From: Actinomycetes bacterium
Lineage (GTDB): Bacteria; Actinomycetota; Acidimicrobiia; Acidimicrobiales; RAAP-2
DNA length: 33,283 bases
NCBI GenBank assembly: GCA_021794995.1
Contig: JAJYPY010000013.1
Location: 1 to 33,283 of the forward strand
Direction of reading: 5' to 3'
Position 1 is the stretch's first letter. Each line of letters starts with the position of its first letter. The notes beneath the pieces are model-generated. The model searched no databases. It was not told where the DNA came from and was given only the letters and a program-made list of their open reading frames with translations. The translations under genes and the position numbers were made by a program. Below, piece by piece: positions 210-33,103 of this stretch.

Positions 210-1264
210 TCACGGTGCCGGTCGCGCTCGGGGAGCGCAGCTACGACGTGACCGTGGGAGATGGTGCCTCGTCCCAGCTCGCGGCGCTCGTCGCGACCCG
301 CGTGCGCGGCGCACGCCGGGCCGTGGTCGTCACCGACGAGACGGTGGCCGCCGCGCCGTGGTTTGCAGGGATCGACCCGGGACTCCCCTTCGAGGTCCAT
401 GCGGTGCGGGCCGGGGAGCGCGCAAAGACCGTGGACACGGTCGAGGCCCTTTGCCGGGAGCTCGCACGCGCAGGGCTCGCACGCACCGACGTGATCGTTG
501 CCGTCGGTGGTGGCGTCGTCACGGATCTCGCGGGGTTCGTCGCCTCGATCTACCACCGCGGCACCGCGTACTGCTCGGTCGCCACGACGCTTCTGTGCCA
601 GGTCGACGCCGCGATCGGCGGGAAGACGGGAGTGAACCTGCCCGAAGGCAAGAACCTGCTCGGCGCGTTCTGGCAGCCGGCGGGCGTCCTGTGCGACACC
701 GCGCTGCTCGCGACGCTGCCCGCTCGGGAGTGGGCGTCAGGACGCGGCGAGATGGCGAAGTACGCGTTCTTGGGCGAGCCGGGGATCGGGGAGCTCGCAC
801 TCGACGCGCAGGTCGCGCGTTGCGTCGAGCTCAAGGCGGCGACGGTTGGTGCCGACGAACGTGAGAGCGGCCGGCGCGTCCTGTTGAACTACGGCCACAC
901 GCTCGCACATGCGCTCGAGGCGGCGTCGCTCGCGGCCGGGGGGGACCTGCGCCACGGTGAGGCGGTCGGCGTCGGGCTCGTGTACGCCGCGCTCCTCGCC
1001 CGGCGTCTCGGGAGGATCGGTGACGACGAGGTGGCGCGCCACCGTGAAGTGGTGGAACGCTTCGGCCTGTCGGCCCGCCTTCCCGCGGGGCTCGACGGCA
1101 TCGACCGCAAGGAGCTGCTGGCCTACATGGCTCGGGACAAGAAGGCCGCCCAAGATCTTGCGTTCGTCCTGGACGGCCCGCACGGCCTGGAGCTGGTGCA
1201 CGGTGTCGACGCTGCGGACGTCCTCGGGGCGCTCGACGAGCTGGGAGACGTCACGTGCACCTGA
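206..1264 (+). CDS. aroB: 3-dehydroquinate synthase
   Basis: MITVPVALGERSYDVTVGDG...VGGGVVTDLAGFVASIYHRGTAYCSVATTLLCQVDAAIGGKTGVN...NYGHTLAHALE; ATGA junction with aroK. Confidence 0.95.
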   Translation: MITVPVALGERSYDVTVGDGASSQLAALVATRVRGARRAVVVTDETVAAAPWFAGIDPGLPFEVHAVRAGERAKTVDTVEALCRELARAGLARTDVIVAVGGGVVTDLAGFVASIYHRGTAYCSVATTLLCQVDAAIGGKTGVNLPEGKNLLGAFWQPAGVLCDTALLATLPAREWASGRGEMAKYAFLGEPGIGELALDAQVARCVELKAATVGADERESGRRVLLNYGHTLAHALEAASLAAGGDLRHGEAVGVGLVYAALLARRLGRIGDDEVARHREVVERFGLSARLPAGLDGIDRKELLAYMARDKKAAQDLAFVLDGPHGLELVHGVDAADVLGALDELGDVTCT

Positions 1265-4048: not shown

Positions 4049-4606
4049 GTGGCAGAACGCGAGCGCAGCCATACCCGCGGCGGCACGTTCGTTCCCCGTT
4101 CCCAGGTCCTCTCCGCCGCCGACGTCCAGCGCGCACTCGTGCGCATGGCGCACGAGGTCGCCGAACGCAACGGCGGGCTCGACCAGGTCGTCCTCGTCGG
4201 CCTCCAAACCGGCGGGGTCCCGCTCGCGCGCCGCATGGCGGAGGCACTGCGCGACGCCGAAGGGACCGAGGTGCCCGTCGGCAGCCTCGACGTGGCCTTC
4301 TACCGCGACGACATCGGGCTGCGCCCCGTGCTGCCAGAGGCGGCCACCGACATCCCCTGCGACCTCACGGGTCGCGTCGTCGTGGTGGTCGACGACGTCC
4401 TGTTCACCGGGCGCACCGTCCGGGCTGCGCTCCACGCGCTGTCCGACTTCGGACGCGCCCGCGCCATCCAGCTCGCGGTCATGGTCGACCGCGGCCATCG
4501 CGAGCTGCCGATCCGCCCTGACTACGTGGGGAAGAACCTCCCGACGCGGCGCGACGAGATGGTCGACGTGAGCGACGACGGCGTGGTGATCGGGAGCCTC
4601 GGGTGA
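4049..4606 (+). CDS. pyrR: Bifunctional pyr operon regulator / uracil phosphoribosyltransferase PyrR
   Basis: [26 protein letters not shown]...[17 protein letters not shown]...[22 protein letters not shown] (PRTase motif); GTG start after AGGAGG (4039-4044). Confidence 0.93.
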
Positions 4607-12174: not shown

Positions 12175-13012
12175 GCGCGTCCGCCGAGCGATCGCGTCGA
12201 CCGGCCCGTTGTGCGTGGGCATCGATCCGGCTGCGTCGCTGCTCGACGCGTGGGGTCTCTCTGACGACGCCGCGGGCCTCCGTGCGTTCGGCCTCGGCTG
12301 CGTCGAGGCGGTGTCGGGCGTGGTCCCGGTGGTCAAGCCCCAAGTGGCGTTCTTCGAGCGGCACGGCGCAGCGGGGATGGCCGCGTACGAAGAGGTTGTC
12401 GCAGCGGCGCAGGCGGCCGGGCTCCTCGTGATCGCCGACGCGAAGCGCGGCGACATCGGCTCGACGACCGAGGCCTACGCCGACGCGTGGTTCCGCGGTC
12501 CGTTCGCTGCAGACGCACTGACCGCGACGCCCTATGTGGGCCTCGACGCGCTGTGGCCGATGGCGGACGCCGCGCGCGCCACCGGGCGCGGCCTCGTCGT
12601 CGTCGTCTCGAGCTCGAACCCCGAGGGCCGCACGCTGCAGCACGCCGTCACCGAGGATGGCCGGAGCGTGGAGCGGTCGCTCCTCGACGAGATCGCACGG
12701 TGGAACCGCGAGGAGCTGGCGGACGAGGCTCGGCGCGCGGACACCGCGCCGTTGGGGTCCGCGGGCGCAGTGGTCGGTGCCGTGCGCGGCGGTGCGCCGG
12801 TGGAGGGTCTCGAGGACCTCGGAGGCATCGTCCTCGCGCCCGGGCTGGGCGCCCAAGGCGCACGCGTCGAGGACGTCGCCCGCCGATTCGCGGGCTGCCC
12901 GACGGGATCGGTCCTCCCGGCGGTGTCACGCGGCGTGCAGGCAGACGGTGAGCGGGGGATGCGAAACGCGGCCCGGCGGCTCCTCGACGCCCTGGCTGGT
13001 GCCCTGAGCTGA
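12158..13012 (+). CDS. pyrF: Orotidine-5'-phosphate decarboxylase (long actinobacterial type)
   Basis: LCVGIDPAASLLDAWGL...VVKPQVAFFERHGAAGMAAYEEV...LLVIADAKRGDIGSTTEAYADAW. Confidence 0.94.
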   Translation: MLPFGERVRRAIASTGPLCVGIDPAASLLDAWGLSDDAAGLRAFGLGCVEAVSGVVPVVKPQVAFFERHGAAGMAAYEEVVAAAQAAGLLVIADAKRGDIGSTTEAYADAWFRGPFAADALTATPYVGLDALWPMADAARATGRGLVVVVSSSNPEGRTLQHAVTEDGRSVERSLLDEIARWNREELADEARRADTAPLGSAGAVVGAVRGGAPVEGLEDLGGIVLAPGLGAQGARVEDVARRFAGCPTGSVLPAVSRGVQADGERGMRNAARRLLDALAGALS

Positions 13013-13022
13013 GCCGGGAGGC

Positions 13023-13028
13023 TACAGT
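13023..13028 (+). promoter_or_regulatory. Candidate -10 (TACAGT) giving a leaderless mihF mRNA
   Basis: TACAGT followed by 7 nt and then ATG at 13036. Confidence 0.5.
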
Positions 13029-13035
13029 CGGGCTC

Positions 13036-13356
13036 ATGCCGCAACCTCCCGCACTCACCACCGAGCAGCGTCAAGCTGCGCTTGAGAAGGCCGCCAAGGT
13101 GCGACGGGAGCGGGCGGAGGTGAAGGAGAGGCTCAAGATGGGCTCCCTCACCCTCGCCGAGCTCCTCCGCCAGGCAGAGTCCGACGAGACCGTCGGCAAG
13201 ATGAAGGTGGTCTCCGTGCTCGAATCCCTTCCCGGTCTGGGCAAGGTGAAGGCACGCCGACTCATGGCATCGGTCGGCATCGCCGAGAGCCGCCGCCTGC
13301 AAGGGCTCGGAGCCAAGCAGCGAGCCGATCTTCTCGAGCAGACCGCCTCGCGCTGA
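13036..13356 (+). CDS. mihF: Actinobacterial integration host factor (mIHF)
   Basis: KAAKVRRERAEVKERLKMGSLTLAELLRQAESDETVGKMKVVSVLESLPGLGKVKARRLMASVGIAESRRLQGLG; next to gmk. Confidence 0.95.
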   Translation: MPQPPALTTEQRQAALEKAAKVRRERAEVKERLKMGSLTLAELLRQAESDETVGKMKVVSVLESLPGLGKVKARRLMASVGIAESRRLQGLGAKQRADLLEQTASR

Positions 13357-13907
13357 ACATCTTCGTGCTCATCGGCCCGGGGGGGGCCGGCAAGGGGACC
13401 GTCGCCGCCGCGTTGACCGCACGCGTCCCCGATCTGTGGCTCAGCCGTTCGTGGACGACGCGCCCGCGACGTCCCGGCGAGGACCCGAACGCCTACGTGT
13501 GGGTGACGCCTGAAGAGTTCCGCCGGCGCGTCGCAGAAGGGGGGTTCTTCGAGTGGGCCGAGTACCTGGGCAACCTCTACGGGACCCCGGTGCCCGATCC
13601 GCCACCGGGCAGCGACGTGCTGCTCGAAATCGATCTCCAAGGGGCCGAGCAGGTCGTGGCGAAGCGCCCCGACGCGGTCGTCATCTTGCTCTTGCCGCCG
13701 TCCTTCGACGTCCAGCGGGCCCGCCTCGTGTCTCGCGGCGACCCGGACGAGCACGTCCGGCGCCGCCTCGAAAAGGGGCGGGAGGAGGTGGTGCACGGAC
13801 ACGAGCTCGCTCGCTACGAGGTGGTCAACGCCGACCTCGAACAGGCCGTGGAGGAGCTTGCCGGTATAGTGTGCGCGACCCGCCGAAAGGATGTCGATGC
13901 CCCGTAA
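13353..13907 (+). CDS. gmk: Guanylate kinase (proposed CTG start at 13353; alternative GTG at 13365)
   Basis: LNIFVLIGPGGAGKGTVAAAL...LSRSWTTRPRRPGEDPNAYVWVTPEEFRRRVAEGGFFEWAEYLGNLYGTP; CTG start restores the beta-1 strand before the P-loop. Confidence 0.9.
   Translation: MNIFVLIGPGGAGKGTVAAALTARVPDLWLSRSWTTRPRRPGEDPNAYVWVTPEEFRRRVAEGGFFEWAEYLGNLYGTPVPDPPPGSDVLLEIDLQGAEQVVAKRPDAVVILLLPPSFDVQRARLVSRGDPDEHVRRRLEKGREEVVHGHELARYEVVNADLEQAVEELAGIVCATRRKDVDAP
13865..13870 (+). promoter_or_regulatory. Candidate -10 (TATAGT) for rpoZ
   Basis: TATAGT inside the gmk 3' end, about 26 nt upstream of the rpoZ start region. Confidence 0.45.
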
Positions 13908-15478: not shown

Positions 15479-16665
15479 GAACCACCTTCACCTCAGAGTC
15501 GGTGACCGAGGGCCACCCCGACAAGATGGCCGACCAGATCTCCGATGCGGTGCTCGACGCGCTGCTCGAGCGGGATCCGCTCAGCCGGGTGGCGTGCGAG
15601 ACGCTGCTCACCACCGGCCTCGTCGTCGTGGCCGGTGAGATCAGCACGGAGACCTATGTCGACATCCCCACCTTGGTGCGCGACGTCGTGTGCGACATCG
15701 GCTACGACAACGATGCGTACGGTTTCAACGGTCGGACGTGCGGGGTGATGGTCGCCCTCGACGGCCAGTCTCCGGACATCGCCCGCGGCGTGGACGCGGC
15801 GTTCGAGCTGCGCAGCGGATCGGGGGGCGAGGATCTGCTGAACGCCCAGGGCGCAGGCGACCAGGGGATGATGTTCGGCTACGCGTGCGACGAAACCCCC
15901 GACCTGATGCCAATGCCGATCTGGCTCGCGCACCGGCTCTCCCAGCGTCTGTCCCAGGTCCGTCGTGTCGGCGTACTGCCGTACCTACGCCCCGACGGGA
16001 AGACCCAAGTGAGCATCACCTACGACAACGGGCGGCCCGTCGCCGTCGAGACCGTCTTGATCTCCACCCAGCACCAGCCGGGTATCGATCTCGACACCCT
16101 TCTTTTGCCGGACCTGGACGAGCACGTCGTGCACCCGCTGCTCCCGAAGGACCTCGACACCGACAAGATGCGGCTCCTCGCCAACCCGACGGGGCTGTTC
16201 GAGCTCGGCGGTCCGCATGCCGACACCGGGCTCACGGGACGCAAGATCATCGTGGACACCTACGGAGGGATGGCGCGCCACGGCGGGGGAGCGTTCTCCG
16301 GAAAGGATCCCTCCAAGGTGGACCGCTCAGCGGCGTACGCCGCGCGCTGGGTCGCAAAGCACGTGGTCTCGGCGGGAGCGGCACGGCGCTGCGAGCTCCA
16401 GGTCGCCTACGCCATCGGCGTCGCGCACCCGGTGTCGCTCGCAGTGGAGACGTTCGGCACCGAGACCGTGGATCCCGCACGGATCGTGGCCACCGTGCGT
16501 GAGCTGTTCGACCTGCGACCCGCAGCCATCATCCGCGACCTCGATCTGCGACGCCCGATCTACCGTCGGACCGCCGCCTACGGGCACTTCGGCCGCAGCG
16601 ACAAGGAGTTCACCTGGGAGCAGACGCCGAAGGCGGACGAGCTGCGTCGGGCGCTGGACCTCTGA
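15475..16665 (+). CDS. metK: S-adenosylmethionine synthase
   Basis: [29 protein letters not shown]...[21 protein letters not shown]...[20 protein letters not shown] overlap with coaBC. Confidence 0.97.
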
Positions 16666-18395
16666 TCGTCAGCGTCGTCCCCGACGTGCCGGCGGTCAGC
16701 CGCCGCCAATTCGACTACACGGTGCCAGAGCGCTGGCAGCGCGACATGCGTGAGGGCAGCCGCGTGCGGGTGCCGTTCCACGGACGGCGGGTGGGCGCGT
16801 GGGTCGTCGAGGTGGGTGTGACGCCCCCACCGGGCGTCTTACTTCGGGCGGTCACGGGGGTATCGGGCCATGGGCCCCCGCCGAGCGTGCTGGCGCTCGC
16901 GCAGTGGGGCGCGTGGCGCTGGGCGATGCCCGTCGCGGCGTTGCTTCGGATCGCGTCCCCCGAGCGCAACGTGTGGTCGCTGCCGGTCCCACCTGCGAGC
17001 GCGCGCCGATCGCCGGGTTCACACGCGCGGGCCGTGCCGCGTGCACGCGCCGCCGGCTCCTCGCGGAGGGACGGCGTGACCCTTCGGCGTGTGGCTCCCG
17101 CGCACGACGTGCTCCCGTGGGTGCTGGAGGCGATCGATGGCTCGTGCGGACCGGTGCTCGTGCTCGCGCCGAGCACCGGATGGGCCGGCCGCCTCTCGGA
17201 GAGGCTCAGAGCGCGCGGCGTAGACGTGGCGTCCAGCTGGGCGGAAGCGGCGGCCGGGTGGCCGGTCGTCGTCGGGTCGCGCGCCGCGGCGTGGGCTCCG
17301 GTCCCGGTGCTCGGCGCCGCGGTGGTGCTCGACGCGCACGATTATCACGACCGCTACGACGCCGCCGACGTCGTGGTCGAGCGTGCCGCTCGCGACGGCG
17401 CGCCGTGCCTGCTGATCTCACCGTGCCCGACGGTCGTGCAGCGGGAGCGCTACGGGCCCGCCGTCGTGCCGGAACGCTCGGTCGAACGCTCGGGTTGGCC
17501 CGCGGTCACGCTCGTCGACCGCCGGAGCGCCGACCCACGCACCGGCATGCTCTCCGACGAGCTCGTCCAGCTGGCCCGCAGGGTTCTGCCGGGACGGCTC
17601 GTCTGCGTGCTGCACCGCACCGGCAGGGCCAGGCTCCTCGCGTGCGTCGCATGCGGCGCGCTCGCCCGGTGCGCGGCGTGCGGCCGGCCGGTCGTGTCGA
17701 CACGCGACCTGCTGCACTGCAGGACCTGTGGCGCGGATCGGCCAATGGTGTGCGGCGACTGCGGGTCCGTCCGACTGAAGGTCCTCCGTCAAGGCGTGTC
17801 CCGGGTGCGCGAGGAGCTGGCCGCACTCCTCGGGACGCCGGTTGGCGAGGTGGCGGGGACTCCCGCGGACGCGCCGGTGCCAGCGACATCGGTGCTCGTG
17901 GGGACCGAAGCCGTGTTGCATCGGGTGCGGCACGCCGCCGCAGTCGCGTTCTTGGACTTCGACCAGCATCTTCTCGCGCCGCGGTTCTGTGCGGGCGAGG
18001 AGTCGCTCGTGCTGCTCGCCCGCGCAGCCAGGCTCGTCGGAGGGAGGGGATCGCCCCACGCCCAAGAGCGCGCACGAGGGTCCGGCGGGGAAGGCACCGT
18101 GCTCGTCCAGACCAGGGTTCCGGACCATGACGTGCTGCGTGCGGCGGTTGCGGGCGATCCGGACCTCTTCACAGAGCGCGAGCTGCGACGCGAGCTGCGC
18201 TTGCCGCCGTTCAGCGCGCTTGCGGCCGTGCGCAGCGGCGCGGTGCCGGTGCTCGCTCCCGAGGCGGAGGCGGGCGTAGAGGTGTCGCCGCTCGCACCTG
18301 GGCGATGGCTCCTCCGTGCACCCGACCACCGCACGCTCTGCGACGCCGTCGCGACGCTGCATGGCGGGGTCAACGTCGACCCGGTCGACGTCTGA
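16662..18395 (+). CDS. priA: PriA-like replication restart protein, apparently lacking helicase motifs (proposed CTG start 16662; alternative GTG 16686)
   Basis: [26 protein letters not shown]-terminus, Zn-binding Cys cluster [41 protein letters not shown]; no Walker A or DEEH motif. Confidence 0.85.
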
Positions 18396-19025: not shown

Positions 19026-20354
19026 CTACCGCCGTCGCCGGGGAGCTGCCCTGAGGGGGTCGGGGTCGCGGCGCCCGGGGAACCGGGGGGTCGGCGGCGG
19101 GTCGTCGCGCCCGCGGACGCGTCGTCGCAGCGGGCGGGCGTGGGACTCTGCGAGCTCGTCGAAGGTCTTGGGGGCGAGCCACTCCCATCGCCCCGGTCCC
19201 CCACGCAGCTGCCAGCCCTGCTCGGTCTTGAGGCGGTGGTGGGCGGGGCACAGCCGGCACAGGTTGGAGAGCTCGGTCGGGCCGTTCCAGGTGAAGTCGA
19301 GGTTCCAGTGGTCGATCTGGAGACGCTCGGTGGCGCCGCACCCGGGCACCACGCACGAGCGGTCCCGCACCAACAGGGCGTGCTGGACCTTCGTGGGCAC
19401 CGCCCGGGTCGTCGAGGTGACCGTGGCGATGTCGGCGCCGTCGGTGACGACCAGGGTCCACAGCGCCTCGCCCAACAGCGCGCGGGCGCGCAGGACCGAG
19501 ACCGGGCCCACGCCTGGGATCTCGCAGATCTCCCCGTCGGCCAGCTCGCCGCGCCGGAGGGCTCCTGCGTCCACGCACACCACCACCTCGGGGCGCCCCA
19601 CCCCCGCCCGCCTCGTCGTGGCGGCCACGAGCCCCACCAGGGCGTCGGCACGCAGCTGCTCGTGGGTCGCCCCGACCCCAAGACGCCTGGCCTCGTGGGC
19701 GAGGCGCAGCTGCTCGCGGTCCAAGGCCAAGAGCAGCGCGGCGGCGTCTTGGGCCCCCAAGAACGCATCCACGCGGACCCCGCCGCCGCTCACCCAGGTC
19801 CGGCAGTAGCGCCGGGCGTGGACCTGGCGCTCGCTGCGCACGGTCTCCTCGTCACGTTGGTGCCGCTGCAAGGTGCGCGCCACCTCCTGACGCAGCTCGC
19901 TCACCGAGGACGTCTTTGCGCCCTCGGCCAAGCGCCGGGCCGCCTCGGGGTCCACCCCGGCCACCGGGGCGATGAGGGCGGCCTGGTCCAAGGAGACGTC
20001 CCCGTTCGACAGCGCCGCCTCGAGGGGCGCACACCCCGCCACCTTGTCGGCGACCCCGAGCGCCGCGCGCGCCTTTGCGACGGTCGTCCCGCTGAGCGAG
20101 GACAGCAGCGCCGCCGCGCTCGTCTCCCCGGCGCACGTGCGGGCCCCGTCGTCGCCCGCCGCACGCGCACAACGCAGCGCCGCCGCCTGAGCCACCCTGG
20201 CGACCTCGGAGAAGAGCCCCGCCAGCGTCACGGTCTCGGGGACCCCGAGCCCCGCCACGCCGTGCGCCGCGGCCCGCACGAGGGCGGCCGCCTGACGCAC
20301 CTGGGCCACGGACCGCGCCGCCCCTCCCTCGGCCACGGCGCCTGATGTCTCCAT
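19026..20354 (-). CDS. DUF222 / HNH endonuclease domain protein (13E12-type family)
   Basis: Ala-rich DUF222-like N-terminus (SLDQAALIAPVAGVDPEAARRLAEGA) and C-terminal HNH: CVVPGCGATERLQIDHWNLDFTWNGPTELSNLCRLCPAHHRLK. Confidence 0.9.
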   Translation of the reverse strand: METSGAVAEGGAARSVAQVRQAAALVRAAAHGVAGLGVPETVTLAGLFSEVARVAQAAALRCARAAGDDGARTCAGETSAAALLSSLSGTTVAKARAALGVADKVAGCAPLEAALSNGDVSLDQAALIAPVAGVDPEAARRLAEGAKTSSVSELRQEVARTLQRHQRDEETVRSERQVHARRYCRTWVSGGGVRVDAFLGAQDAAALLLALDREQLRLAHEARRLGVGATHEQLRADALVGLVAATTRRAGVGRPEVVVCVDAGALRRGELADGEICEIPGVGPVSVLRARALLGEALWTLVVTDGADIATVTSTTRAVPTKVQHALLVRDRSCVVPGCGATERLQIDHWNLDFTWNGPTELSNLCRLCPAHHRLKTEQGWQLRGGPGRWEWLAPKTFDELAESHARPLRRRVRGRDDPPPTPRFPGRRDPDPLRAAPRRRR

Positions 20355-20397
20355 GACGACAGCGTGCCAGGGGGGTGTGACGCGCGATCCTCTAGGG

Positions 20398-21333
20398 GTG
20401 CAGTCACCGCCGCGCCGGCTCGCCTACCTGGGTACCCCCGAGGCCGCGGTGCGGCCGCTGCGGGCCCTCGTCGAAGCGGGCCACAACGTGCGCGTGGTGG
20501 TCACGCGGCCGGACCGCCGGCGTGGTCGAGGCGCCGCGACGTCGCCGAGCCCGGTCAAGGCGGAGGCCGAACGTCTCGGCATCCGGGTCGTCCACGACCT
20601 CGACGCGCTCCTCGAACGCGGCGCCACCGCCGGCACCGGCGACGGCCCGGCGGTGGACCTCGGCGTGGTCGTGGCCTACGGACGCATCATTCCCGAGCGG
20701 GTCCTTGCACGCGTCCCCATGGTGAACCTCCACTTCTCCCTGCTGCCGCGCTGGCGCGGCGCGGCGCCGGTCGAACGGGCCATCCTGGCGGGCGACGAGG
20801 CGACCGGGGTGTGCGTCATGGCGCTCGAGCCCGAGCTCGACACCGGGCCCGTGTACGCCAGGGCGGTGGTCCCGATCCTTCCCGGCGAGCACCTCGGCCC
20901 CCTGCGCGAGCGGCTGGTCGAGGTCGGAAGCCGGCTCCTGGTCGACACGCTGGCCGGTCCGCTCCGCAGCCCCGAGCCGCAGCAGGGTGAGCCGACGTAC
21001 GCCGAGAAGGTCGGCGCCGCCGAGCTCCGGTTGCGATGGAACCACCCGTCGGCGGAGCTCGCGCGCCTGGTGCGTCTCGACCGTGCGTGGACGACGTGGC
21101 GCGGACGGCGGATGAGGATCTTGGAAGCCGAGGAGGTCCCAGCTCCCGTCGGCGCGGCGGCCCCACCTCCGGGCACCCTCGTGGGTGACGTGGTCGTGAC
21201 GGGCGACGGCGGCTTGCGGCTCGTGCGCGTCCAACCCGAAGGCCGTCCCGCGATGGGAGCGGACGAGTGGCGGCGCGGCGCCCGGCCCGCCGACGGTGAG
21301 CGGTTCGACGGTGAGCGGGCCGGTAGCTCGTAG
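20398..21333 (+). CDS. fmt: Methionyl-tRNA formyltransferase
   Basis: RLAYLGTPEAAVRPLRAL...VVTRPDRRRGRG...VNLHFSLLPRWRGAAPVERAILAGDEATGVCVM; GTG start. Confidence 0.93.
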   Translation: MQSPPRRLAYLGTPEAAVRPLRALVEAGHNVRVVVTRPDRRRGRGAATSPSPVKAEAERLGIRVVHDLDALLERGATAGTGDGPAVDLGVVVAYGRIIPERVLARVPMVNLHFSLLPRWRGAAPVERAILAGDEATGVCVMALEPELDTGPVYARAVVPILPGEHLGPLRERLVEVGSRLLVDTLAGPLRSPEPQQGEPTYAEKVGAAELRLRWNHPSAELARLVRLDRAWTTWRGRRMRILEAEEVPAPVGAAAPPPGTLVGDVVVTGDGGLRLVRVQPEGRPAMGADEWRRGARPADGERFDGERAGSS

Positions 21334-24868: not shown

Positions 24869-25753
24869 GTGCTACGCATCGTCCTTCCCAAGGGATCCCT
24901 CGAGAGGGCCACCCTGGACCTCTTCGACGCCGCAGACCTTTCCGTCTTGCGGTCCTCCGACGTCGACTACCGGGCGTCCATCTCCGATCCACGTGTCGAC
25001 GACGTCCGGATCCTGCGTCCCCAGGAGATCCCCGTGTATGTCGCCGAAGGTCTCTTCGACCTCGGCATCACCGGACGCGACTGGATCGAAGAGCGCGGGG
25101 CGGACGTGGTGTCGCTCGGGGAGCTCGCGTACTCCAAGGTCACGTCCAACCCGGTGCGGGTGGTGCTCGCGGTCGCGGCCGGCTCGCCGTGGACTGACCT
25201 CGCCGACCTCGCGGGCGCCGGTCGCCGGCTCCGGGTGAGCACGGAGTACCCCCAGCTCACCCGCCGCGCTCTCGAGGCCCACGGCATCGACGCCGACATC
25301 TCGCTGTCCTACGGCGCGACCGAGGCCAAGGTTCCCGACATCGCGGACTGCGTCGTCGAGATCACCGAGACCGGGCGCGCGCTGCGTGCGGCGGGCCTGC
25401 GGGTGATCGAGACGCTGCTCGAGTCGCGCACCGAGCTCATCGCCAACCGCGCGGCGGCCGGCGACCCGGCGAAGCGTCACGCGATGGAGCAGCTCCACAC
25501 GCTCCTCGCCGGTGCCCTGGAGGCGCGGGAGAAGGTGCTCGTGAAGCTGAACGTCCCCGAGGAGCGACTGGACGCGGTGCTGAAGGTGCTGCCGTCGATG
25601 CGGGCGCCCACCGTCTCGGAGCTGTCGGGCAGGCGCGGCTACGCGGTGGAGACGGTGACCGCGAAGTCCGACATCAATACGCTCATTCCCGCGTTGAAGG
25701 ACGAAGGAGCGACCGACATCCTGGAGCTCCCGCTCTCCAAGATCGTCCATTGA
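24869..25753 (+). CDS. hisG: ATP phosphoribosyltransferase (long form)
   Basis: VLRIVLPKGSLERATLDLFDAADL...YVAEGLFDLGITGRDWIEE...DIADCVVEITETGRALRAAGLRVIE. Confidence 0.94.
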   Translation: MLRIVLPKGSLERATLDLFDAADLSVLRSSDVDYRASISDPRVDDVRILRPQEIPVYVAEGLFDLGITGRDWIEERGADVVSLGELAYSKVTSNPVRVVLAVAAGSPWTDLADLAGAGRRLRVSTEYPQLTRRALEAHGIDADISLSYGATEAKVPDIADCVVEITETGRALRAAGLRVIETLLESRTELIANRAAAGDPAKRHAMEQLHTLLAGALEAREKVLVKLNVPEERLDAVLKVLPSMRAPTVSELSGRRGYAVETVTAKSDINTLIPALKDEGATDILELPLSKIVH

Positions 25754-31105: not shown

Positions 31106-31681
31106 ATAGTCACCGCCACCGCACCTGAGCACCGGATCAACGACCGCATTCGGGCACGCGAGGTCCGCCTCGTCGACCCGGAGGGGCAGCAGCTCGGGAT
31201 CAAGCCCCTGCCCGAGGCGCTCACCATCGCCCGGGGCCTCGACATGGACCTCGTCGAGGTGGCCCCCATGGCGAATCCCCCGGTCTGCCGGATCATGGAC
31301 TACGGAAAGTTCAAATTCGACGAGGCGCAGCGTGCCAAGGAGAGCCGTCGCAAGGCCGTCCACGTCGGGCTGAAGGAAATGAAGTACCGGCCGAAGATCG
31401 GCCCAGGCGACTTCGACACCAAGACCCGGCAGGTGGCGCGCTTCTTGGACGAGGGCCACAAGGTCAAGATCACGATCATGTTCCGGGGGCGCGAGGTGTT
31501 CCACCCCGAGCTCGGCAAGAAGATCCTCGATCGCATCGCCGAGCAGATGGACGGGTCGGCGAAGGTGGAGGCGGAACCGCGGCTCGACGGCCGGAACATG
31601 GTGATGGTGCTGGCGCCGGACAAGCGGGCGAAGCAGTCGGCGGCGGCGCGACAGCGCAACGAGGAGCACCAGGAGGAGTAG
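31106..31681 (+). CDS. infC: Translation initiation factor IF-3 (proposed AUA start; ORF-track GTG at 31004 considered unlikely)
   Basis: RINDRIRAREVRLVDPEGQQLGIKPLPEAL...DLDLVEVAP-like MDLVEVAPMANPPVCRIMDYGKFKFDEAQ...GPGDFDTKTRQVARFLDEGHKVKITIMFRGRE; GAGAGAGAGGA SD at 31086-31096. Confidence 0.9.
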   Translation: MVTATAPEHRINDRIRAREVRLVDPEGQQLGIKPLPEALTIARGLDMDLVEVAPMANPPVCRIMDYGKFKFDEAQRAKESRRKAVHVGLKEMKYRPKIGPGDFDTKTRQVARFLDEGHKVKITIMFRGREVFHPELGKKILDRIAEQMDGSAKVEAEPRLDGRNMVMVLAPDKRAKQSAAARQRNEEHQEE

Positions 31682-31949: not shown

Positions 31950-32312
31950 ATGGCACGAGTGAAGCGCGCGGTCCACGGCCGCAAGCACCACCGCGCGGTG
32001 CTCGAGCAGGCGAAGGGCTACTACGGGAACAAGAGCCGGACCTATCGCGCCGCGAACGAGCAGCTGATGCACTCCATGCAGTACGCGTACCGCGATCGCA
32101 GGGCGCGCAAGGGGGACTTCCGCAAGCTCTGGATCCAGCGGATCAACGCGGCGGCCCGCCTGCACGGCATGAGCTACAGCCGGTTCATCGCCGGCCTGCA
32201 CGAGGCGGGAGTCGACGTGGACCGCAAGGTCCTCGCCGATCTGGCCGTGACCGACGACGCCGCCTTCGGCGCGCTCGTCGCCGTGGCGGACGCCGCATTG
32301 GCAGCGTCCTGA
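31950..32312 (+). CDS. rplT: 50S ribosomal protein L20
   Basis: [70 protein letters not shown]. Confidence 0.97.
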
Positions 32313-33103
32313 CGCTCGCGTACTCGCACCAGCGGGTACGGCGTATCCGGCGCCTGCTCCAGCGGCGGCCTGCACGCCATGCGGAGCGGGCCTTCGTGGT
32401 CGAGGGCATCGAGGTCATCCGCACGGCCCTCATGGCCGGCGCCGTCCCCGAGTCCCTGTACCTCGCTGCGGAAGGCGCAGGCGACCCCGGCCTCTCCGAG
32501 CTCGCAGCACGCGCGGCCGCACGTGGTGCCCGCGTGCTCGAGTTGGCGCCAGGCGTGATGGCGCGTGTCGCCGACACGGTGACGCCGCAGCCCGTGCTCG
32601 CCGTGTTCCCGATGGTCGACGTGCCCGAGGTGCCGGAGGGGGCGCGCCTGGTCGTCGTGATGGTGGACGTGCGCGATCCTGGCAACGCCGGCACGGTGCT
32701 GCGGACCGCCGACGCGGCGGGGGTCGACGCCGTCGTGTGCTGTGGCGGCACCGTCGACCCCTACAACCCCAAGACCGTGCGCGCGTCGGCCGGATCGCTC
32801 TTCCACGTCCCGCTCGTCGTGGGTGACGACCCGGTGCGCGTGCTCGACGAGCTGGCGGCTTTCGGATTGCGCCGGCTCGGTGCGGTGGTGCGCGGCGGGG
32901 AGGACTACGCGACCGTCGAGTGGACGGCGCGGATCGCGCTCGTGCTCGGCAACGAGGCGTCGGGGCTGCCCGACTCGATCCCGCTGGACGGGACGGTCGC
33001 CATCCCGATGGCCGGACGTGCGGAGTCGCTCAACGTCGGCATGGCGTGCGCGGTGCTGTGCTTCGAAGCGCTGCGCCAGCGCCGATCTACGATGCCCCGA
33101 TGA
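32309..33103 (+). CDS. TrmH/SpoU-family RNA 2'-O-methyltransferase (proposed CTG start 32309; alternative GTG 32396)
   Basis: [101 protein letters not shown] (SpoU motifs). Confidence 0.88.

Follow-up and report, generated by a model that had tools for sequence, protein, structure and literature searches.

Comparative evidence for conserved CUG start codons at stop-codon overlaps of gmk and a few further genes in Acidimicrobiales

The window, meaning here the whole analyzed DNA stretch of 33,283 nucleotides (contig 10 of a 2.64-Mb assembly), carries on its forward strand the gene mihF (13036..13356), which encodes the actinobacterial integration host factor with a PF22525 S13-like H2TH domain, followed by the guanylate kinase gene gmk (13353..13907, 184 amino acids). 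The start of mihF is an ATG found in 12 of 12 genomes, and the protein ends with TASR before the TGA stop at 13354-13356. The gmk frame read from 13353 begins CTG AAC ATC TTC GTG CTC ATC GGC CCG GGG and its product LNIFVLIGPGG, with the CTG overlapping the mihF stop in the four bases CTGA (13353-13356). The predicted product matches PF00625 from residue 3 with 75.7 bits. The nearest upstream stop in the gmk frame lies 97 codons before the P-loop, about 90 codons ahead of the CTG are open, and within this open frame the only ATG, GTG or TTG before the P-loop is the GTG at 13365-13367, three codons before the P-loop and nine bases past the mihF stop, which would leave only VLIGPGG. Guanylate kinases in the PDB align with the product from residue 2 (N-I-F-V versus N-L-F-M), therefore a start at the CTG would restore the entire first strand (beta-1). 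Because the window genome has its own GTG 13365, this genome alone leaves the gmk start undecided.

All stop/start overlaps of the NTGA type named in the initial annotation are present in the sequence and comprise all four first bases: ATGA at 206, 1728, 6803, 15475 and 33100, GTGA at 4603 and 5514, TTGA at 25750, and CTGA at 1261, 13353, 16662 and 32309. The additional claim that gmk is not the only gene with a CTGA start was sustained for two of the remaining sites. First, priA (16662..18395, forward strand) starts with a CTG overlapping the TGA of metK, and its PF17764 PriA 3'BD domain begins at residue 5. Second, the gene for a trmH/SpoU-family rRNA methyltransferase (32309..33103, forward strand; PF22435/PF00588) starts with a CTG overlapping the TGA of rplT. 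The same claim is doubtful for the aroB/aroQ junction (1261..1264, forward strand), where the CTG probably does not start aroQ because the preferred GTG 1255 is present in four of five genomes. A CTGA at 13009, between pyrF and mihF, was also considered as mihF start and rejected in favor of the conserved ATG 13036.

Start codons were compared between the window species and 12 congeners for gmk (13 species), and the order-wide gmk set comprised 120 additional genomes of the Acidimicrobiales, an order that has been little studied, in which codons were numbered backward from the P-loop. The named close relatives are metagenome-assembled genomes labeled Acidimicrobiales, Acidimicrobiaceae or Actinomycetes, and all genomes compared are kin, hence the counts given here are not independent. 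The gene infC for IF3 (31106..31681, forward strand), known for its noncanonical start, served as positive control. Its start, ATA 31106 behind the Shine-Dalgarno (SD) sequence AGAGGA in the window, was recovered in all relatives read, in the form of ATA or ATC, which indicates that the approach detects what it should. Among the relatives ATA is commoner than ATC, a strong SD stands in front, and many have an in-frame stop a few codons upstream of infC and no NTG.

Within the genus, the gmk CTG column overlaps the mihF stop in all 13 species, and the codon at 13365 is GTC or GTT in each of the 12 congeners. In these congeners the next canonical codon downstream is 24-50 codons away and beyond the P-loop, while upstream such a codon is at least 116 codons away or absent, so that CTG is the only plausible NTG start and no ATG, GTG or TTG can serve; GTG 13365 remains in the window genome. 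Therefore, the congeners' Gmk either starts noncanonically or has no catalytic P-loop. Together with the PDB alignment, these findings bear out the initial annotation in placing the gmk start at CTG 13353 instead of GTG 13365.

Across the order, an NTG occurs at gmk codon -6 in 77 of the 120 genomes, compared to one genome at -7 and eight at -5. The NTG types at -6 are CTG (51), GTG (13), TTG (9) and ATG (4), and in 23 of the 51 CTG genomes the 40 codons preceding the P-loop contain no ATG, GTG or TTG as far as the frame is open. Both CTG and canonical codons occur at this position in six families, and G034 and G015, which are congeners of each other, have CTG and ATG, respectively, at the start column. 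The mihF stop is found at -25 nt in 18 genomes, most of which belong to other genera of the family, and 14 of the 18 have an NTG at gmk codon -11 (10 CTG, 3 TTG, 1 GTG; nominal p 5e-11, with kinship ignored), so the start position moves and CTG is still its commonest form. There mihF ends in rare T-ending codons (ACT, AGT, CTT) followed by G and coding for differing amino acids; the share of T among wobble bases is 10.7%. In about one quarter of the order genomes, CTG and canonical codons are both missing at gmk -6 and close to it, and some of these have only ATC or CTC there. Among the best-matching genomes outside the order, a canonical codon precedes the P-loop by 5 to 13 codons in nearly all; one (L266) has only CTG. 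In a few genomes of the order, the gmk matches (G410:C9, L245; G112:C59, L173; G063:C142, L180) were reported with one in-frame stop inside the matched stretch.

The occurrence of C in the overlap is by itself no evidence of selection, because C is general at the mihF end: it precedes the stop in 28 versus 2 genomes with G where the stop overlaps codon -6, but also in 53 of 59 genomes where it does not. The same overlap also inflates the excess of CTG over CTC at gmk -6 (p about 2e-7), which amounts to 23 versus 11 without those genomes. A single CTGA is thus not beyond chance, since C is the usual base before TGA here, as it also is in the control frame of the gene-pair survey described below (35 of 62 pairs). 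As judged from the genome comparison, conservation nevertheless places the gmk CTG beyond chance, given its presence in all 13 species of the genus, the lack of a canonical alternative in 12 of them and the order-wide NTG peak.

The further CTG genes show similar patterns. The priA CTG is present in 12 of 12 congeners. In four of them (L083, L086, L088, L089) the metK stop is elsewhere and the CTG is kept without overlap, and in L275, L279 and L281 priA has no usable ATG, GTG or TTG. At the priA start column, GTG is found in the nearest sister genus (G019, L280), and in other genera a GTG follows one codon later; hence, as at gmk -6, the column interchanges with a canonical start. For trmH, CTG occupies the same column in seven genomes and lies two codons upstream in five, while L093, L109 and L110 are without usable ATG, GTG or TTG. 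In G003 (L100) the rplT stop is apparently upstream, the CTG stays and no canonical codon is near. In other genera and families, CTG is found at most trmH junctions shown, usually without nearby ATG, GTG or TTG. A scan of the other contigs of the window genome for CTGA without nearby canonical start turned up a HIT-family hydrolase (G000 C9) as the only additional case. Its CTG was found in 10 of 10 genus species with a readable start, an out-of-sample prediction, and L351 and L356 have no usable ATG, GTG or TTG, while other genera have ATG or GTG, often two codons downstream. The HIT gene (L350, in congeners L351-L359) sits behind a gene for a small DNA-binding protein. The CTG codons at 13353, 16662 and 32309 and that of the HIT gene all overlap the upstream stop as CTGA, and these four genes represent about 3% of the 118 genes called in 139 kb of this genome.

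The window's CTG genes lack an SD sequence as judged from duplex energies, which average -2.0 for gmk, -2.1 for priA and -2.2 for trmH, in comparison to -9.2 for mihF, -8.2 for rplT, -6.7 for metK and -6.5 for infC; even random 17-mers gave a stronger background of -3.4. Only one normal initiator tRNA with a CAT anticodon was found, hence a special initiator with a CAG anticodon reading CUG was rejected; a search for an initiator-type anticodon stem with CAG gave only GGGCTCATAACCC, in 11 of 13 genomes. Wobble positions near the 3' end of the upstream gene were considered as carriers of a reinitiation signal, but their raised conservation is weak and rplT does not share it.

The comparison identifies the CTG columns as probable starts for which the congeners offer neither a canonical alternative nor an SD. 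Regarding their function, a weak reinitiation start is most likely. With a probability of about 0.82, we assume that gmk is translated from CUG 13353 by reinitiation after mihF and that the CUG is a gene-specific, inherited and weak coupled start. A ribosome ending mihF at UGA would use the ordinary initiator tRNA (fMet-tRNA) to start again on the CUG that overlaps this stop, and the CUG would have been kept gene by gene, order-wide in gmk and trmH and genus-wide in priA and the HIT hydrolase. The proteins mIHF, L20 and MetK are typically abundant, and Gmk, the SpoU methylase and PriA are typically scarce. A weak coupled start might pass a small share of the ribosomes from the abundant upstream gene (mihF, rplT, metK) to the scarce enzyme, and would thereby step the dosage down. 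A low output is expected because the CAU anticodon pairs weakly with CUG in E. coli and CTG is hardly functional in mycobacteria, where a selection experiment found CTG as leadered start in 0.03% (PMC4633059). The same figure can also be held against a weak start, as CTG is scarcely a start there at all. We infer reinitiation, fMet at the CUG, weak output and sensitivity to IF3. A wider proposal, for which we see somewhat less than even odds, is that CUG (AUC in some gmk) regularly serves the Acidimicrobiales, under selection, as a start where genes of an operon are coupled, either as a dosage valve or as an IF3-responsive set that includes the essential gmk, and that it has lasted in a large part of the order with a shifting start position.

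Among the other explanations, the one that survives best is that CUG (and AUC or AUA) starts have been kept as a set controlled by IF3, like infC, and not for stoichiometry. It is unlikely, but deserves to be taken seriously, because infC of the same genomes starts with ATA or ATC and because IF3 represses noncanonical starts, as demonstrated for the GTC of Streptomyces sigR (PMC5472188). It also agrees with a few gmk genes whose open frame is devoid of NTG and whose start column holds ATC (L206 of G156, L175 of G123); these two and L165 (G187), likewise without NTG near the start and with ATC at the start column, suggest an AUC start. However, infC has an SD and the CTG genes do not. Control by IF3 and a weak coupled start may also be compatible.

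The initial annotation had proposed that the position of the stop overlap, and not the identity of the start codon, defines reinitiation in this lineage, i.e. that any NTG overlapping a stop is a start. The four NTGA types in the window and the placement of all four CTG genes of this genome at CTGA overlaps are consistent with such a rule, but we consider it improbable. In-frame NTGA was counted against a control frame in 315 close same-strand gene pairs from sampled stretches, with TGATG taken out, giving 38 versus 5 for A, 46 versus 16 for G, 5 versus 6 for T and 53 versus 35 for C. The enrichment is significant for ATGA alone; GTGA may be enriched as well, and TTGA and CTGA are not in general. 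The general excess of CTGA that the rule predicts was thus not found in this sample, where 28 versus 35 remain without gmk, priA and trmH; the gene-specific CTG starts are untouched by this result. Moreover, start identity is kept per gene within the genus (ATG in mihF, rpoZ and rplT, GTG in coaBC, CTG in gmk and priA), and the priA CTG without overlap in four congeners also contradicts the rule. From these alignments and counts, a stop overlap is not sufficient to turn an NTG of any kind into a start; CUG appears to be used by a small set of genes.

A start of gmk at GTG 13365, with Gmk beginning VLIGPGG, is still less probable. It has in its favor that this GTG is the sole canonical codon before the P-loop in the window and that several other genera of the family carry GTG there, for which a short Gmk may be possible. 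Against it stand its absence from all 12 congeners, the removal of half of beta-1, with which the PDB structures align from residue 2 of the CTG product, and the lack of an apparent SD upstream. A mihF-gmk fusion by frameshifting or stop readthrough would make a gmk start codon unnecessary, and in its favor many genomes have no stop in the gmk frame along much or all of mihF. It can practically be dismissed, because the mihF stop lies in differing frames and at differing distances from the P-loop in the order (-17, -20, -25, -31 and -62 nt), no slippery site is apparent, and such a fusion would give no reason to expect the NTG peak at codon -6.

Near-cognate starts and the coupling of genes by overlaps are both already known. 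The closest parallel is infC, for which PMC5472188 names ATT in E. coli and ATC in Streptomyces and describes autoregulation by IF3. As with the CTG genes, one gene has kept a noncanonical start throughout a wide clade, and gene finders miss it; infC differs by its strong SD and self-regulation, while the CTG genes of the window have no SD and lie behind overlapping stops. According to the same paper, the GTC of Streptomyces sigR is another conserved near-cognate start in actinobacteria, which lowers the output relative to the partner gene, but it concerns one gene in one genus with a strong SD and was proven by mutation, whereas here CUG is found in four genes from comparative evidence alone. 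Termination-reinitiation at ATGA and TGATG (PMC6728339, PMC10666635) shares the 4-nt stop/start overlap of co-directed genes, but the former paper describes ATGA and TGATG overlaps and makes no mention of CTGA or CUG. In E. coli initiation complexes, the CAU anticodon of fMet-tRNA pairs with CUG in the P site, more weakly than with AUG, GUG or UUG (PMC11497404); these were in vitro complexes with a variant initiator tRNA and not natural genes. The work on reinitiation at noncanonical codons in PMC4648390 is eukaryotic.

A limited search of the open-access literature found no account of CUG starts that particular genes keep throughout a genus or, like gmk and trmH, through much of an order; this is no proof of absence. 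CUG starts are regarded as almost unused in bacteria, with 2 of 61,358 ancestral AUG starts switched to CUG (PMC5622118), but such counts derive from annotated starts or from other clades, and CTG is not among the starts that common gene callers assign. Many N-termini of gmk, trmH, priA and HIT genes in Acidimicrobiales are probably misannotated. An essential gene with a putative CUG start conserved over much of an order indicates that comparative start calling can find such genes, which provide a natural system for asking whether reinitiation relaxes start-codon choice.

Two minor observations concern further sites of the window. Immediately ahead of the conserved mihF ATG, the pyrF/mihF gap (13010-13036) contains GGGAGG and TACAGT, which might represent a promoter or the SD of mihF. 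In several congeners, the gene fmt (20353-21333 in the window) is without a canonical start close to the N-terminus, and a CTGA lies upstream in G001, G012, G005 and G009; it is possibly a fifth CTG gene, with a poorly conserved N-terminus.
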